64,000 bases of DNA from Hyalangium ruber (lineage in GTDB: Bacteria; Myxococcota; Myxococcia; Myxococcales; Myxococcaceae), in the NCBI RefSeq assembly GCF_034259325.1, contig NZ_JAXIVS010000011.1, positions 310,001 through 374,000 of the forward strand. Reading direction: 5' to 3'. Shown piece by piece: positions 28,258-46,251 of this stretch. The position numbers and the translations under genes were made by a program. Under the pieces are notes generated by a model. The model was not told the DNA's origin and ran no database searches. It worked only from the letters and a program-made list of their open reading frames with translations. How positions within the stretch are numbered: the first letter of the stretch is position 1; the number at the start of each line of letters is the position of its first letter.

Positions 28258-28803
28258 TTGGGGCTAAGTCTCGTCCGGCTGGCGCGTGAGGCGCTGGCGA
28301 GCGACGGGGTGCTCGGCAGCCTGCCGTCCCTGCGCGTCTCGGTGCATCGCCGGCGCAAGGTGGTGCGGCTGGCCTACGAGGGCCTGCCCTCCGCGGGGGC
28401 GAGGGGCGCTCACTGGTATGGCGAGCACCACGCGCTTGCACGCCTGCTGTCCCGGGTCTCCAACGCCACCGTCCACGCCTACTGCATCGATCCGGATGAC
28501 GGTGAAGAGGTCATCGCCTACGGCAACGGTCGCCGCGTGGGGGGCGACCGGGTGGTCTACGAGAACGTGGAGCTGCCCGAGCAGGCCGAGGAGCTGGACG
28601 ACGCGGCCTTCAAGCTGATGCGCTCGCGCTGGCCGATGGGACACCTGGCCTACGTCTTCGGCCTCACGCGCGAGGAGCTGCTGCGCTTGCCGCGCGCGGC
28701 CTCGAACGTGCTGTTGACGCTGGATGCTGTGAACGCGGAGGAGCTGCTGGAGGAACTGCTGCCCAGCCCCCAGCTGCCCCACGCTACGCCGGACGCGGCC
28801 TGA
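28258..28803 (+). CDS. Conserved hypothetical protein
   Basis: 181 aa from a TTG at 28258; an internal GTG (28300 region) is an alternative, as no good ribosome site is visible. The protein is compact, mostly alpha/beta and acidic at the C terminus, with no membrane helix or signal. Recognisable stretches are VVYENVELPEQAEELDDAAF and GHLAYVFGLTREELLRLPRAAS, but I can name no family. It lies between clpB and the TROVE locus, and its stop is ~50 bp before the structured element. Confidence 0.65.
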   Translation: MGLSLVRLAREALASDGVLGSLPSLRVSVHRRRKVVRLAYEGLPSAGARGAHWYGEHHALARLLSRVSNATVHAYCIDPDDGEEVIAYGNGRRVGGDRVVYENVELPEQAEELDDAAFKLMRSRWPMGHLAYVFGLTREELLRLPRAASNVLLTLDAVNAEELLEELLPSPQLPHATPDAA

Positions 28804-28853
28804 TCCTCCGAGCGGGCCTGTCAGCTTTGTCAGGCCTGTCCGTGGTACTCTGG

Positions 28854-28944
28854 GAGCGCCGCTCGCGGGACTGTGATGCGACTTCCGAAACGAGCTTTTG
28901 TAGCTTGACTAGCTGGTCGTGTCCTCACACCCCGAGCGGCGCTC
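28854..28944 (+). ncRNA. Structured RNA candidate, possibly Y-RNA-like
   Basis: A single extended hairpin can be drawn. A 12-bp perfect stem GAGCGCCGCTCG (28854-28865) pairs with 28933-28944 and continues with GGG/CCC past a bulged C. Next come TGTGA/TCACA (28872-28876 with 28925-28929), GCGACT/GGTCGT (28878-28883 with 28915-28920) and an apical CGAGCT/AGCTTG stem (28891-28896 with 28902-28907). The upper part contains TTCCGAA and CTTGACTAGC, which resemble the two strands of the Ro-binding helix of Y RNAs. It lies directly upstream of a TROVE gene, where bacterial Y RNAs are usually encoded. The Y-RNA lower helix is not reproduced exactly and no tRNA-like module is present. The structure could alternatively be a leader element of the TROVE mRNA. 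Confidence 0.45.
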
Positions 28945-28980
28945 GTGCCACCCGAAACCTCGGGCACCCGGGAGGTGGAC

Positions 28981-30516
28981 GTGAAGGACATGGCAATCGC
29001 GCTGCCGGCCGAGCAGGTCGCGCGCGAGGACCTCGTGATGTTCGTGAACGCGTGCTTCTCCTGCACGGGGCAGCGTGAGTTCTATAACGACGCGCGCGGG
29101 CAGGCGGTCTCCATCGAGTTCCTGCACGAGTACATCCTGGGCAACTACCGCCGGCTCTACGCGCGCACGCTGGCGGCGGGCATCAACCACTTCAACCGGG
29201 CGCAGATCGTCCTCAACCTGCTGGCCACCGGTCGCGACACTCCGTCGGCGGACCGAGCGGAGGAGGGCGCGCTGATCGCCGCGACGCTTCGGGCACTGCC
29301 GCCGCCCCGGGCTTATCGTGTGCTGGAGCTGCTGCGCTCGCGCCGCATCAACAACCGCCGTTCGCGCGCCATCGCCCGTGAGTACCTGGCGGGGCGGCCG
29401 GACCTGGACTTCGACGCGGTGAAGTACCGCTCCAAGCTGCGCTCGGCGGTGGTGCATGGGCACCTGAAGCTGGGAGATGAGCGGGGCCCCTTCCTGTTCC
29501 ACGGCTGGCGCAAGCGTGTGTACACCCGCCCGCTGCTGGAGAAGTTCCGCCAGGCCCATTACACCCAGGAGGCCCTCTTCGAGCTGCCCTTCACCATCGC
29601 CGAGGGGCTGGCCTACAAGCACGGCATTCCCCGCGCGGTTTTCCTCGAGCGCATCGAGCCACGCCTGACCCAGGCCGAGCGGATGCGCCTGCAGGGGAGC
29701 GCCGCGCGCACGAAGGGGGTGGAGCTCTCCGTGGACCTCTCGCGGGTGCCGCTCACGAAGCTGGCGCTGTACGCGCTGTCCCTGGCACCGGCGGCTCGGC
29801 TGGAGCGGCGCGAGGAGCTGCACGCCGCGCTCTCGCAGGCCACGGCCCGGACGCTGGGGCGGGCGCCGCTGGCCCTGGGCCGGGTGGCTGCGGTGCTGGA
29901 CAACAGCTATTCCAGCTCGGGCTCCAACGAGAAGCGCCGTCGCCCGTTGGGGGTGGCGCTCGCGGCGCACTACCTGCTGTCCGCCGCGGCGCGCGAGTAC
30001 CGCGCCTTCTGGACGTCGCGGGTCGAAGATCCGCTCCTGGTGGGAGCACGGGGGCAGACGGATCTCTCCGCCCCGCTGCTCGACGCGTTGGAGTGGGCGC
30101 CGGACCTGGTGGTGGTCGTGTCCGACGGCTACGACAACGGGCCTCCCAACGCGGTGGCGGAGCTCACGCGCATCTTCCGGACGAAGCTGGATCCGGGGCG
30201 CCGCACCTCCATCATCCACGCCAACCCGGTGTTCGACTCGGAGCTGTTCACCCCCCGGGCGCTCGGGGCCTGCGTGCCCACGGTGGGTGTGCGCGACGCG
30301 GAGGATCTGCCGACGGTGCTGGGCTTCGCGCGGTTCGCGGAAGGCGCGGCCCCGCTGTCGGAGCTGGAGCACTACCTGGCGGCACGCGTGCGACAGATGA
30401 TCGAGCGCGATGCACGCAAGCGGGGCGTGACGGCTCCGCTGAGCCTCGTGGGGGCATCAGCATCCGAAGTGCCCCCCGAGGATGAAGAACTCCCCGCGGT
30501 GGAAGAGGAGGCGTGA
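28981..30516 (+). CDS. TROVE-domain protein (Ro60/Rsr-like)
   Basis: 511 aa from the GTG at 28981 (GGAGG 5 nt upstream); the ATG at 28990 is equally possible. The N-terminal ~290 residues are helical TROVE/HEAT-like repeats. A von Willebrand A-like domain follows with an intact MIDAS: DNSYSSS (~307), TDL (~360) and SDG (~382). This is the architecture of Ro60/Rsr, a ring-shaped RNA-binding protein that holds Y RNAs and misfolded RNAs and helps nucleases such as PNPase. An acidic tail ends the protein. Its stop is 1 nt from the ATG of the next gene. Confidence 0.82.
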   Translation: MKDMAIALPAEQVAREDLVMFVNACFSCTGQREFYNDARGQAVSIEFLHEYILGNYRRLYARTLAAGINHFNRAQIVLNLLATGRDTPSADRAEEGALIAATLRALPPPRAYRVLELLRSRRINNRRSRAIAREYLAGRPDLDFDAVKYRSKLRSAVVHGHLKLGDERGPFLFHGWRKRVYTRPLLEKFRQAHYTQEALFELPFTIAEGLAYKHGIPRAVFLERIEPRLTQAERMRLQGSAARTKGVELSVDLSRVPLTKLALYALSLAPAARLERREELHAALSQATARTLGRAPLALGRVAAVLDNSYSSSGSNEKRRRPLGVALAAHYLLSAAAREYRAFWTSRVEDPLLVGARGQTDLSAPLLDALEWAPDLVVVVSDGYDNGPPNAVAELTRIFRTKLDPGRRTSIIHANPVFDSELFTPRALGACVPTVGVRDAEDLPTVLGFARFAEGAAPLSELEHYLAARVRQMIERDARKRGVTAPLSLVGASASEVPPEDEELPAVEEEA

Positions 30517-30517
30517 G

Positions 30518-31699
30518 ATGGGACGTGGCAGCGCGGTGACGAAGCGGATCGGCCTCCAGGGCCTGCGGCTGGCGCCGGCACAGGTGTACGGCAACTTCCG
30601 CCTGGTGCCCGTCCTGCGGGACACGGTGCGGGGAGACCTGCGCTTTGCCCGGCGGACGTACCCGGATGACCTGGCGGTCGTCGCGCTCGAAGGCGAGCCG
30701 ATGGCACCGGGGCTCAAGTACGTCTCGTACATCCCGCACGGGATGGTGATGTCCTGGGACAAGCAGCAGGTGGAGGCGGTCGTCGAGACGCGGCTCGTCA
30801 AGCCCGACGGGAAGCAGCTGAAGGTGGGGCCGTTCTCGCTCCGGGTGCTGCACCGGATGGTGCGCCGGGAGGACCGCCATCAGCTGCGACTGCTCCCGCT
30901 GCACCTGGCGATGGAAGGCTTCCTCGCTCTGCAGTTCGGTGGGCCGGAGATCGCCTGGCAGGAGTACTCGCGGGAGGCGTTGTCCACGGGGCTGAGCCCT
31001 CGTGTCGAGCAGTCGGTGCCGGGCTGGGCCAACGCGGCGTTCGCGGAGGCGCTGCGTGTGTTCGAGATCCACGAGCAGCAGGTGGGGGTGCTCATCTTCC
31101 GGGCGGACCTGCTGATGTCGGCCTTCATCCTGGCGCACCCGGACGACTACCGGGCGCTGCACCGGCCCATGCTGGAGGACTTCTACGGCGAGCTGCTGCT
31201 GCAGTACGGCTTCCTGGAGGAGGTCTCCCCGCTGGGAAGCTCCATCGAGCCGGGGCGGGTCTCTTCCCTGGGAGACCTCCGGGCCGAGGTGGCGCGTCTG
31301 CATCAGGACTGGGCGGCCTTCGTCCAGTCCTGCATGGCGGGAGGGCTGATGGGCGTCGAGGTCTCCGCGTCCCGCGTGTACGAGGCCGGCCCGTTCACGC
31401 TGGAGCGCTTCGTGACGGGCCTGCAGCCGTCGGAGGAGAACCACCTCGGCGAGATGATCCTCCGCGAGGAGGACGGAACGATCGAGTACCTCAAGACGTA
31501 CCGGCTGTCGGCGGCGCAGACGCGGCGGGCCTACCTGCTCAAGCAGGTGTCGGCGGCGGGGTGGAACCTGGAGGACGCGGCGCGCAATCTGCGGACCAGT
31601 CGGGACGAGCTGATGGTCCGCATGAGGAACGCCGGCTTTGGCTACCTGCTCAAGCCAGAGGTCCTGAGCCAGGCCGTGAGCCGGCATACCCGCCGCTGA
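30518..31699 (+). CDS. TROVE-partner protein with C-terminal FIS-type HTH (ARPP-1-like?)
   Basis: 393 aa with AGGAGG upstream and a 1-nt gap from the TROVE gene. Residues ~1-130 begin GLQGLRLAPAQVYGNFRLVPVL..., reminiscent of the ARPP-1 domain (weak). A helical middle region is followed by a C-terminal helix-turn-helix (AYLLKQVSAAGWNLEDAARNLRTSRDELMVRMRNAG...) of the FIS/NtrC-tail type. It could be a regulator of, or RNA/DNA adaptor for, the TROVE ribonucleoprotein. No catalytic motif is seen. Confidence 0.6.
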   Translation: MGRGSAVTKRIGLQGLRLAPAQVYGNFRLVPVLRDTVRGDLRFARRTYPDDLAVVALEGEPMAPGLKYVSYIPHGMVMSWDKQQVEAVVETRLVKPDGKQLKVGPFSLRVLHRMVRREDRHQLRLLPLHLAMEGFLALQFGGPEIAWQEYSREALSTGLSPRVEQSVPGWANAAFAEALRVFEIHEQQVGVLIFRADLLMSAFILAHPDDYRALHRPMLEDFYGELLLQYGFLEEVSPLGSSIEPGRVSSLGDLRAEVARLHQDWAAFVQSCMAGGLMGVEVSASRVYEAGPFTLERFVTGLQPSEENHLGEMILREEDGTIEYLKTYRLSAAQTRRAYLLKQVSAAGWNLEDAARNLRTSRDELMVRMRNAGFGYLLKPEVLSQAVSRHTRR

Positions 31700-43800: not shown

Positions 43801-46251
43801 GAGCTGTTCCACCTGCTGGCGTGCTTCGGCGGTGTTGCCGCTCATGAACTCGCAGCGGGCCTGCTCCAACTGGAGCTTGAAGGCCAGCTCGGGGTCCGAC
43901 TCCCACGGGTCTCCGGGGAGGAGCTGGAAGGCTGTCGCCAGGTAGGTGGCGGCCGAGCGGAACGCGGTCGAGGCCTGTGCCCGCTCCGCGGCCTCGGCGT
44001 TCAGGCGTGCCACGCGGTGGCGCTCCTCGGGGTCAATGAGAAGCTCCGCGCCGGCATTGAGCTGGCTCACCACGTCGAAGAGGTGTTCCTGCACCTCCTC
44101 GGGCGTCATGCTGCCCAGCAGCAGCCGGCCGATGCGCAGGTGGACGGCCTTGCGCTCCTCTTCGGGAATGAGGGCATGGGCCGCCTGCTGGATGCGGTCA
44201 TGGAGGAAGCGATATTGGTCCGGGCCGGCGCTCGCCAGCAGCCCCTCCTGGAGCGCCGGATCGAGGCCTTGCTCGACTTCGGCCGCCTCCTTCAGATCGG
44301 AGATCAAGCGCAGGGTGCGCAGGGTGAAGCTGTTGCCCACGCAAGCGGCCAGACGCAGCAGGTGCTGGGTGTTCGAAGGAAGCTGGCGCAGCTTGCCGAC
44401 CATGAAGTCGACGACGTTGTCGGAGTAACCCCGGGCCTGGACCTGCTCGGCATCCCAGCGCCAGGCGCCCTCGGGCGTGCGAGCCAGCAGGCCGTCGTGG
44501 TGGAGCGTGAGCAGGAACTGCAGCAGGAAGAAAGGGTTGCCGCCAGTCTTCTCCCGGGCCAACGCCGCGAGCGGTTCGACGACGTCTCCGGTCGCCCCAG
44601 GCAGCGCGTCTCCCACCAGGCACCGCACGTCCTCGAGGCTCAGCGGCTCGAGCTGGAGATCGGTCAGCCGCGCGCCAGCCTTGCCCAGCTCTCTCAGGGC
44701 CAGCGCCAGGGGGTGCGAGGGACTCACCTCGTTGTCCCGGTAGGCGCCAATGAGGAGCAGCGGGGGTGTCTCCGGGTGGGTGAGCAGGTGCTGGATGAGC
44801 TGGAGGCTCGCCCCATCGGCCCACTGCAGGTCATCCAGGAACAGCACGAGGGGACGTTCGGCGTGGGTCAGCGCGCCGAGGAACTTGCGGAACACGCGGT
44901 GGAAGCGGTGCTGGGCCTCGGCGGGAGGCAGCTCCGGGACAGGCGGCTGCTTGCCGGCGACGAGCTCCAGTTGGGGCACCACGTCCACGAGGAGCTGCCC
45001 GTGGCCTTCCCAGGCCTCGCGCAGGTGTTCCCGCCAGCGCGCCAGCTCCTCGTCGGTGCCCGAGAGCAGTTGCTGCGCCAGCCCGCGGATGGCCTGCGCC
45101 AGGGTGGAGTAGGGGATGGCGCGCTGGAACTGGTCGAACTTGCCGCTGAGGAAGAAGCCGCGCTGGCGTACCACGGGCTTGTGCAGCTCGTGGACCACCG
45201 AGGACTTGCCGATGCCGGAGTAGCCGCGCACCAGGAGGAGCTCGGGTCGCCCGCCCTGGGCCACGCGCTCGAAGCCCTGGAGCAGGGCGGCCGCGTGCGT
45301 GGCGCGCCCATAGAGCCGCTGGGGCAGCTGGAAGCGGACGGGCACATCCTTCAGGCCGGGCTCGAAGTCCTCGCGCACGCCCCGGCGCAGGGCTTCCTGG
45401 CACCGCTCGAGGTCCGCTCGCAGCCCTGCGGCGCTCTGGTAGCGCTCCTCGGCCACCTTGGCCAGCAGCTTGAGCACGATGGCGGACAGCACGGGCGGCA
45501 GTCCTTCCACCTGCTCCAGGAGAGGCGGGGGCACCAGCGCCATGTGGGCATGGAACCATTCGAGCGCGTCACGCCCATGGAAGGGTCGGCGGCCGGTCAA
45601 CAGCTCGTAGAGGGTGACGCCCAGCGAGTAGAGGTCGGTGCGGTAGTCCACCGAGCGGTTCATGCGCCCGGTTTGTTCCGGAGACATGTAAGCCAGCGTG
45701 CCTTCAACCAGCGGGTTCCGCAGGGCATCCACGTGTTCGACGAGCTGGAGGCTGGCGTTGCCGAAGTCGATCAGGCGCGTCTCGCCCGAGGGCGTGAGGA
45801 GGATGTTGGAGGGCTCGAGGTCCTTGTGGATGACGCCGCGGCAGTGGAGCTCCGCCAGCGTGGAAGCCAGGGAGATGCCCAGCGCGAGGACGCGCGGCAC
45901 CTCCAAGGGCTTGCCGGTGAGATCGGCCAGGGACTCACCCGCGATCTCCTCCAGCAGCAGCACGGGGCGGTCGTAGAGCTGCTCGCAGGAATGAACGCGG
46001 GTGACGCCGTGTACTTCGCGAAGGCGCTGCAGGATGCTGAACTCGCGCCGATAGCGCTCGTGCTCGCGCGGGCTGGGAGGCGAGCCCGTGGGTGTCTTGA
46101 GGATGAGCGGCAGGCCATCGGAATCGCGCACCGCATGGAATAGCACGTGGGTGCCAGTGGACTTGATCGCCCCGCGGAGCGTGTAGCCTGGGATCTGGTG
46201 CATGCCTGGAGGTACAGCGATGGGAGCCGCCCTCGCCTCGGCTCGACTCAT
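40891..46251 (-). CDS. Giant Ser/Thr kinase - AAA ATPase - GAF - histidine kinase hybrid
   Basis: About 1786 aa from the ATG at 46251. The order is: Ser/Thr kinase (~20-285; catalytic loop VIHKDLEPSNILL with HKD instead of HRD, then LIDFGNASL); a PknB-associated AAA/STAND ATPase (RGYSGIGKSS P-loop near ~345); a long helical TPR-like region; a GAF domain (~1300-1450); a coiled coil; a HisKA-like helix with the phospho-acceptor in NVLHNVGNVL; and a HATPase with MGIAPEV and GGHGLGLHSS. No membrane segment is seen. It would sense a small ligand through GAF and signal to an unlinked response regulator. Such hybrids are typical of myxobacteria. It diverges from the NACHT gene. Confidence 0.9.
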   Translation of the reverse strand: MSRAEARAAPIAVPPGMHQIPGYTLRGAIKSTGTHVLFHAVRDSDGLPLILKTPTGSPPSPREHERYRREFSILQRLREVHGVTRVHSCEQLYDRPVLLLEEIAGESLADLTGKPLEVPRVLALGISLASTLAELHCRGVIHKDLEPSNILLTPSGETRLIDFGNASLQLVEHVDALRNPLVEGTLAYMSPEQTGRMNRSVDYRTDLYSLGVTLYELLTGRRPFHGRDALEWFHAHMALVPPPLLEQVEGLPPVLSAIVLKLLAKVAEERYQSAAGLRADLERCQEALRRGVREDFEPGLKDVPVRFQLPQRLYGRATHAAALLQGFERVAQGGRPELLLVRGYSGIGKSSVVHELHKPVVRQRGFFLSGKFDQFQRAIPYSTLAQAIRGLAQQLLSGTDEELARWREHLREAWEGHGQLLVDVVPQLELVAGKQPPVPELPPAEAQHRFHRVFRKFLGALTHAERPLVLFLDDLQWADGASLQLIQHLLTHPETPPLLLIGAYRDNEVSPSHPLALALRELGKAGARLTDLQLEPLSLEDVRCLVGDALPGATGDVVEPLAALAREKTGGNPFFLLQFLLTLHHDGLLARTPEGAWRWDAEQVQARGYSDNVVDFMVGKLRQLPSNTQHLLRLAACVGNSFTLRTLRLISDLKEAAEVEQGLDPALQEGLLASAGPDQYRFLHDRIQQAAHALIPEEERKAVHLRIGRLLLGSMTPEEVQEHLFDVVSQLNAGAELLIDPEERHRVARLNAEAAERAQASTAFRSAATYLATAFQLLPGDPWESDPELAFKLQLEQARCEFMSGNTAEARQQVEQLLPRARNRPETGAVYHLKSDLHIAMGEIQACIESLLKCLALLGMPMSPHPSWEEVVAAHEEVGALLAGRPIESLIELPRLTDPDMEATLDVLAALFTPSFFTDRNLLVLHLCRLVSLSLRHGNSGAAVHGYAWYGVVLGPAFKMYREGYAFGKLACELVERHGFSASRGKALYSLEIINYWTRPLSTSLELIREAFQHAVQGGDFQVACYCCNHIVTDRLALGHELEEVYQESVARLDFPRRAGFLDVQHVIQHTQRYVQQLRGLSPAFGSLSGDDFDEASFEAGLTPDSMSTMRCWYWILKMQARFMCGAFTAAREAGNKAAELAWSSTSHIQLLDFHLFRALSLAGSWGELSPEARPPALEDLRQHHQQLAEWASYCPENFRAPERMVHGELARITGQELEASRAYEDALQAAREHGFIQHCALTSELAARFWHERQMPTIADAYALKSREAWLRWGAHGKVRHLDAQWPHLSASATDEATATDTRSTHIDALTVVKAQQAISGEIVLEQLAATLLQVATENAGAQRGALLLPSGEKLSVVAVSDSGQEGTPIDAEEARLPWTLIAYVRRTREQVLIGDASQPHPFSDDAWLGRGQARSVLCLPLLRQEEFRGVLYLENSLATNAFTPERSALLGHIATQAAISIENARLYTDIQRAEAALRRANDELEKRVEERTRELQQAQAQLVDTARSVGMAEVATNVLHNVGNVLTSAVTNLQVMSQTVNTSRLGGLKKVSTLLEEHRPHLADFFTRDPRGLRLPDYLPVLADELLREQAALKEGLGAMSKNIEHIRAIVQVQQTYARSTLLPEECELSALVEDALSMQSPSLKRHGITVVRELSTHRKLRVDKHKVLQILIHLISNAKDAMAPLPPNERYLHVRLAVHGDRARIQVVDNGMGIAPEVRKLLFSQGFTTREGGHGLGLHSSVLAAKMLGGDLTLESDGPGKGATATLELPLTDEQQQSDPARF

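Follow-up and report, generated by a model that had tools for sequence, protein, structure and literature searches.

A conserved structured RNA encoded upstream of a diverged, predicted Ro60-type protein in Hyalangium ruber and other bacteria

A 91-nt element on the plus strand of the 64-kb window of Hyalangium ruber DNA (by "window" we mean the whole 64,000-nt stretch that was analysed) is a real conserved structured RNA that folds as one long interrupted hairpin and extends far beyond the genome of this species. There is strong support both for the structure of this RNA family and for its linkage to the downstream gene, which encodes a Ro-like protein. The family, which accompanies a diverged Ro60-type protein, is new and unlisted in Rfam, and an incomplete check of the open-access literature, covering titles and the beginnings of abstracts, returned no recognised description of the RNA or of the pairing of Ro-like and ARPP genes; the portions consulted of two articles (PMC7159879, PMC7824862) have no bearing on the new RNA family. 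We think it probable, with moderate confidence, that this RNA of about 88 nt is the dedicated noncoding partner of the Ro60-type protein, resembling Y RNAs in function.

Fold and covariation of the RNA element

The plus strand of the element folds with a computed energy of -52.1 kcal/mol (z = -6.99), and none of 200 shuffled sequences folded as low. Since 6 of 600 random 91-nt stretches of the G+C-rich window fold as low, the energy alone is not decisive, and the decisive evidence is covariation. The minus strand of the same interval folds less well (z = -3.89), and an antisense reading was set aside on this comparison and on the scores of model R1, which gave three minus-strand matches of 14-27 bits in 37 loci, against 63-95 bits on the plus strand.

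From 5' to 3', the hairpin comprises P1, a bulged pyrimidine, P2 (GGG/CCC), an internal loop containing ACU, P3, an inner loop and P4 (Table 1). A sequence-only reading of the window had described a perfect 12-bp terminal stem, three inner stems and the sequences TTCCGAA and CTTGACTAGC, all of which are present; the computed fold places the inner stems at 28867-28869/28930-28932, 28875-28883/28915-28923 and 28891-28895/28903-28907, and the drawn structure adds one pair. The portion of P1 common to the species is about 10 bp, not the full 12, the R1 match at contig positions 338856-338943 corresponding to window positions 28856-28943. Perfect 12-bp inverted repeats with arms within about 110 nt occur at four distinct places in the window, P1 being one of them.

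Table 1. Coordinates of the RNA element, its parts, the accompanying signals and genes, and tandem RNA copies. Positions are those of the window unless a genome and contig are given.
Feature	Position	Strand	Remarks
GTCAG element upstream of -10-like element	28820-28824	+	-36 to -41 from conserved RNA start, 29/30 same-family loci
Extended -10-like element TGnTAnnnT, here TGGTACTCT	28843-28851	+	Putative function; predicted start at foot of P1
Structured RNA element, R1 family, 88 nt conserved	28854-28944	+	R1 match 94 bits, E 5e-20
P1, 5' strand	28854-28865	+	Pairs with 28933-28944
Bulged pyrimidine and GGGACU	28866-28872	+	GGG forms P2 with 28930-28932
P3, 5' strand	28875-28882	+	Pairs with 28916-28923
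TTCCGAA, inner loop, 5' side	28883-28889	+	UUCCG in 40/42 copies
P4, apical hairpin	28891-28907	+	28891-28895 with 28903-28907
CTTGACTAGC, proposed Y RNA 3' strand	28904-28913	+	6/42 copies only
P1, 3' strand	28933-28944	+	Pairs with 28854-28865
Diverged Ro60-type protein, HEAT-like ring and vWA domain, 511 aa	28981-30516	+	Predicted model
ARPP-2 protein (PF22549)	30518-31699	+	E 2e-105; start ATG 30518; next after Ro-like gene
Tandem RNA copies, G236 (L127)	C81:43866-43953 and 43984-44071		
Tandem RNA copies, G402 (L125)	C1:3385713-3385800 and 3385517-3385605		

Covariation in relatives, which the sequence-only reading had put forward as a check, was found: across 29 aligned sequences, 22 of 26 base pairs have both partners changed (shuffles: 0 of 500), and 90.8% of cells are paired, as against 73.1% in shuffled alignments and 41-47% with slid partners. 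RNAalifold reports compensated changes in 19 of 23 pairs. Both-sided changes affect 9 of the 10 shared outer pairs of P1, 7 of 8 pairs of P3 and all five of P4, yet just 70.3% of P4 cells are paired. In 13 additional copies of the RNA from cyanobacteria, which are not rows of R1 but were found with it and hence lean towards its structure, both-sided changes occur in 17 of 25 pairs and 91.7% of cells are paired; the outermost drawn pair is formed in one of the 13.

The motif [C/U]GG[G/A]ACU is kept in all 42 RNA copies, UUCCG in 40 and UUCCGA in 30. Among 30 loci of the window's bacterial family, mean ungapped identity is 0.87 over 60 nt within the RNA, 0.33 in the 60 nt upstream of it and 0.36 in the 20 nt after P1. 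The conserved loops largely refute the notion that the element is just an intrinsic terminator or an intergenic inverted repeat due to chance, to which the G+C-rich perfect repeat of P1 and the U-runs directly following P1 in two loci (L089, L081) could otherwise be assigned. A terminator scan of the window stretch found none, the inner stems covary and the RNA has stayed ahead of this gene in different phyla; we therefore regard this explanation as very improbable.

The adjoining Ro-like and ARPP-2 genes

The sequence-only reading had taken the neighbouring gene to be of the Ro60/TROVE type, and the predicted structure bears this out at the level of the fold, while sequence libraries miss the label. 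The protein matched nothing in Pfam, NCBIfam, PADLOC or PHROGs and nothing of note among PDB sequences (best E 0.24), and the Pfam models TROVE (PF05731) and vWA_Ro60 matched 0 of 25 family members at E up to 1 and nothing in the H. ruber genome. A defence-system label was set aside, none of three window proteins having a PADLOC match. Plasmid records annotate the Ro-like proteins as hypothetical or not at all.

By prediction, the protein adjoining the RNA has the Ro60 fold. For the structure model derived from a 25-member cross-phyla alignment (pLDDT 82.3, pTM 0.77), the six best PDB entries returned by Foldseek are all Ro60/TROVE proteins (2nvo, E 2e-7), and the ten best VIA-align rows against the PDB are again all Ro60/TROVE, with Z scores of 13.4-17.7 over 400-409 residues spanning both domains; the rows below these ten are chiefly single vWA domains. 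An earlier model from a narrow alignment (pLDDT 59.6) already placed Ro60/Rsr in the first three PDB positions. When profiles were compared with five TROVE-type proteins from within the phylum, the probability was 95% (E 2.6e-8). The MIDAS motif of vWA domains consists of DxSxS and a later D, and the corresponding D307, S309, S311 and D382 are invariant in the 25 Ro-like sequences.

The list of open reading frames begins the frame of the Ro-like gene at GTG 28945, but GTG 28981, preceded by GGGAGG at 28970-28975, is the likelier start, so that the gap between RNA and gene is about 36 nt. The 181-aa ORF upstream of the RNA (28258-28803, plus strand) has no match in Pfam, NCBIfam or PADLOC, and a homologue was seen in one of 40 loci searched (L066).

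An ARPP-2 homologue adjoins the Ro-like gene in 33 of the 37 loci compared, with only 44 residues matching in L093; none was found in L092, L094 or L096, and L081 ends early. A PHROG match of ARPP-2 (E 0.36) was disregarded. In L093 (803-2058), from Myxococcus xanthus AM003, the Ro-like match ends at residue 380 and the last 44 ARPP-2 residues match 15 nt further on, an arrangement that looks like a deletion between the genes. In two Nostoc plasmids that were typed as conjugative, XisH/XisI genes separate the Ro-like gene from ARPP-2 (L158 5481-6220, L159 5502-6241). Two far relatives of the Ro-like protein that have no RNA are followed by an ARPP-1 gene, one on an Alkaliphilus plasmid (L160, 3623-6195) and the other in another myxobacterium (L062, 2107-4568), and the pairing of Ro-like and ARPP genes thus reaches further than the RNA.

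Other genes, found within a few kb in individual loci, encode a KptA/Tpt1 RNA 2'-phosphotransferase (L089 533-1102, minus strand), a NADAR protein (L092 5366-5815, minus strand) and an RNase_T exonuclease (L099). KptA/Tpt1 and NADAR are both linked to ADP-ribose chemistry. These neighbours, each a single case, hint at RNA ends and ADP-ribose. ARPP proteins themselves have been proposed, in the part of PMC9503650 consulted, to act on the ribose of ADP-ribose.

Distribution and co-occurrence with the Ro-like gene

A pattern-based scan of one genome per species, covering 84,980 species, yielded 37 loci encoding the Ro-like protein in myxobacteria (Sorangium among them), cyanobacteria, a few Gammaproteobacteria, one Sericytochromatia bin and others; Parabeggiatoa, Thiomargarita, Pleionea and Aliikangiella are among the genera represented. 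The RNA lies upstream of the Ro-like gene and on its strand in 37 of 37, at R1 scores of 63-95 bits, 18 of these loci being themselves rows of R1. One contig titled Comamonas sp. KCTC 72670 (L079) carries a myxobacterial-type copy with 73% identity and is possibly mislabelled or from a mixed assembly.

Within individual taxa, the RNA and the protein gene occur together. All 30 loci of the window's bacterial family, including that of H. ruber itself, carry the RNA. Across the order, the Ro-like protein is encoded in 47 of 145 genomes and the RNA is found in 47 of 142 at E 1e-15 or better, and a comparison of the two lists by eye indicates that these are the same 47 genomes; one further match (G018, E 0.06) was taken as chance, as were, in another search, weak R1 matches in G200 (E 0.07) and G199 (E 0.55). 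In the cyanobacterial phylum, where 13 of 292 genomes carry the RNA, the Ro-like protein is encoded just downstream of it in all 11 RNA-bearing genomes searched, the remaining two (G203, G204) being the source genomes of L090 and L091, known carriers of the protein. The RNA also precedes the Ro-like gene, on its strand, on three of three Nostoc plasmids, which with the Alkaliphilus plasmid make up the four plasmid records that matched the protein, and among 369 genomes of Gammaproteobacteria it was detected, at E up to 0.001, only in the centre genome.

In the genomes searched with R1, every copy of the RNA detected lies by a Ro-like gene or a remnant of one. Two additional copies stand beside truncated genes, one in G075 (L063 2323-2410, minus strand), where the gene match covers 36 model positions, and one in G201 (L121, from about 4086, plus strand), where it covers residues 5-146; with too few changes in them, these extra copies were set aside as proof of independence. 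Tandem diverged copies precede a single Ro-like gene in two of the 13 RNA-bearing genomes of the cyanobacterial phylum (Table 1). No RNA match accompanies several far relatives of the protein, namely those of L062 (protein E 2e-12), of the Alkaliphilus plasmid (L160, 24% identity) and of L156 and L161. The last two are weak relatives, on a viral contig (L156 3001-4059, 34% identity) and on an uncultured phage genome (L161 3001-3927, 22% identity), and both have tRNA matches upstream.

Possible roles of the RNA and its relation to known Ro systems

The sequence-only reading had suggested a possible minimal Y RNA devoid of the tRNA-like module. The latter part agrees with our results, with no tRNA in the window, no YrlA match and no such module in the 88-nt hairpin, whereas the former found no support. 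Neither RF00019 and RF01053, which we take to be the Rfam Y RNA models, nor RF02553, the YrlA-type Y RNA that was the third Rfam model tested, matched the window at gathering score or positions 28800-29000 at E up to 10, and none was matched in five relatives' loci at gathering score or in nine at E up to 1, two sets that share four loci and thus cover ten different ones. The element matches no Rfam family; hits to miRNA-type and similar families that fell short of the gathering score were disregarded as chance.

The 3' strand of the Ro-binding stem of Y RNAs reads close to UUGACUAG and is complementary to the 5' strand, GGUCCGA with a bulged C. The proposed counterpart of this strand, CTTGACTAG, occurs in 6 of the 42 RNA copies, each of them from the bacterial family to which H. 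ruber belongs, and TTGA in 11; in the window, its UUG belongs to the covarying stem P4. The conserved UUCCG is not matched by a conserved 3' strand. A genuine Y RNA in shortened form, homologous with Y RNAs and YrlA but with the tRNA-like module lost, would account for the Ro60-type gene beside the RNA in 37 of 37 loci, for the few copies with CTTGACTAGC and for the resemblance of UUCCGAA to the Y RNA strand GGUCCGA, which Ro60 recognises according to part of PMC11277228. Ordinary TROVE loci of the phylum present a different picture: R1 matched none of five loci with Pfam TROVE matches at E up to 10, and four of the five have YrlA-like matches (E 5e-13 to 1e-6, in each case under the Rfam gathering score), located after the gene in L150, L152 and L153 and at the gene start in L151, which also has tRNA-Sec-like matches nearby. 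Judged by its sequence, the element thus fails as a Y RNA, and we hold homology with Y RNAs to be improbable.

The signals around the RNA bear on whether it is a free transcript. The extended -10-like element ends 5 nt ahead of the conserved RNA start, and each of its fixed bases recurs at this spacing in the majority of 30 same-family loci (T 23/30, G 24/30, T 26/30, A 23/30, T 22/30), so that a transcript should begin at P1. The GTCAG element stands at the wrong spacing from it for a sigma-70 -35 box, and a sigma-70 consensus scan of the window stretch found no promoter. Sigma-54-like boxes (TTGGCA...TTGC-type) were seen by eye upstream of the RNA in Pleionea and Aliikangiella (L097, L099); control by sigma-54 and RtcR as in Salmonella was set aside, no RtcR-like activator being apparent by eye among the ORFs of these two loci.

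The main rival is that the element serves purely as a cis-regulatory 5' leader for the operon of the Ro-like and ARPP-2 genes, where the Ro-like protein would autoregulate, or as an attenuator or ligand sensor, with no separate RNA; we judge this rather unlikely, yet several observations favour it. In all loci that have it, the RNA precedes the gene on its strand, mostly near the start codon (4-58 nt away in 18 of 20 loci measured), it is tied to the gene or its remnant, and the YrlA-like RNAs of the phylum lie mostly after the gene; in four Sorangium-type loci the start codon comes 4 nt past the end of the R1 match, where P1 could cover the ribosome-binding site. The lack of a terminator and of a sigma-70 consensus promoter in the window stretch counts against a free RNA, but the missing terminator counts against a leader as well, and in the window the likely ribosome-binding site falls outside P1. 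Known Ro60-family members bind structured noncoding RNAs, commonly with a free RNA partner. This kind of neighbour, the tandem diverged RNA copies and the long spacers of 249 nt (L081) and 422 nt (L096) between RNA and start codon argue for a free RNA partner, as do the conserved -10-like element just ahead of P1 and the U-runs that follow P1 in L089 and L081. Partner and leader roles can coexist.

As a dedicated partner, the RNA would have a transcription start of its own at the base of P1 and fold into one long interrupted hairpin, which the ring of the Ro-like protein may bind via two conserved loops, GGGACU/UUCCCC and UUCCG. Once bound, the RNA could gate or tether the protein in the way that Y RNAs act on Ro60/Rsr, and it may regulate its own operon too. 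The ARPP-2 gene product would also be part of the system, with RNA ends or ADP-ribose-linked products as possible targets. More tentatively, and at somewhat less than even confidence, we suggest a second class of Ro RNP, composed of a diverged Ro60 ring, a non-Y RNA and ARPP-2, that is spread over several phyla and Nostoc plasmids and may act in RNA repair or in ADP-ribose-linked stress or conflict.

Ro60 is a major autoantigen, and the roles of Ro RNPs are only partly known. Were a dedicated RNA to have been kept while RNA and protein sequences diverged, the RNA partnership, and not the Y RNA sequence, would be the core of Ro biology. The compact three-part arrangement of RNA, Ro-like protein and ARPP-2 in myxobacteria and Nostoc offers a system for testing Ro biology, and the analysis yields an RNA family ready for Rfam together with a class of Ro proteins that is poorly annotated on plasmids.

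Compared with known systems, the protein resembles Ro60/Rsr (PDB 2nvo, 1yvp, 2i91, 9nen, 9kop) in the predicted ring and vWA fold over about 400 residues, but differs in sequence, with only 11-16% identity. Like YrlA with Rsr/TROVE, the RNA is small, structured and encoded beside a Ro60-type gene; unlike YrlA, it has no tRNA-like module and no sequence or model match, and it is always upstream, whereas the YrlA-like RNAs of the phylum follow the gene in three of four loci. Bacterial precedents described in part of PMC7790460 include the Deinococcus Rsr, tethered by a Y RNA to PNPase, and the rsr-yrlBA-rtcBA operon of Salmonella. With vertebrate Y RNAs, the new RNA shares a long terminal stem, an inner loop whose 5' side contains UCCGA and a probable partner of predicted Ro60 fold, but GGUCCGA as such, in the form given in the part of PMC11277228 consulted, is absent from it and the 3' strand is not kept. 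The gene pair, finally, is akin to the ARPP gene pairs of PMC9503650, the second gene here being ARPP-2 and that of far relatives ARPP-1; the partners named in the portion consulted differ (ARG systems, HIRAN, WYL, deacetylase), and the terms Ro60, TROVE and Y RNA have 0 occurrences in the main text of that article.
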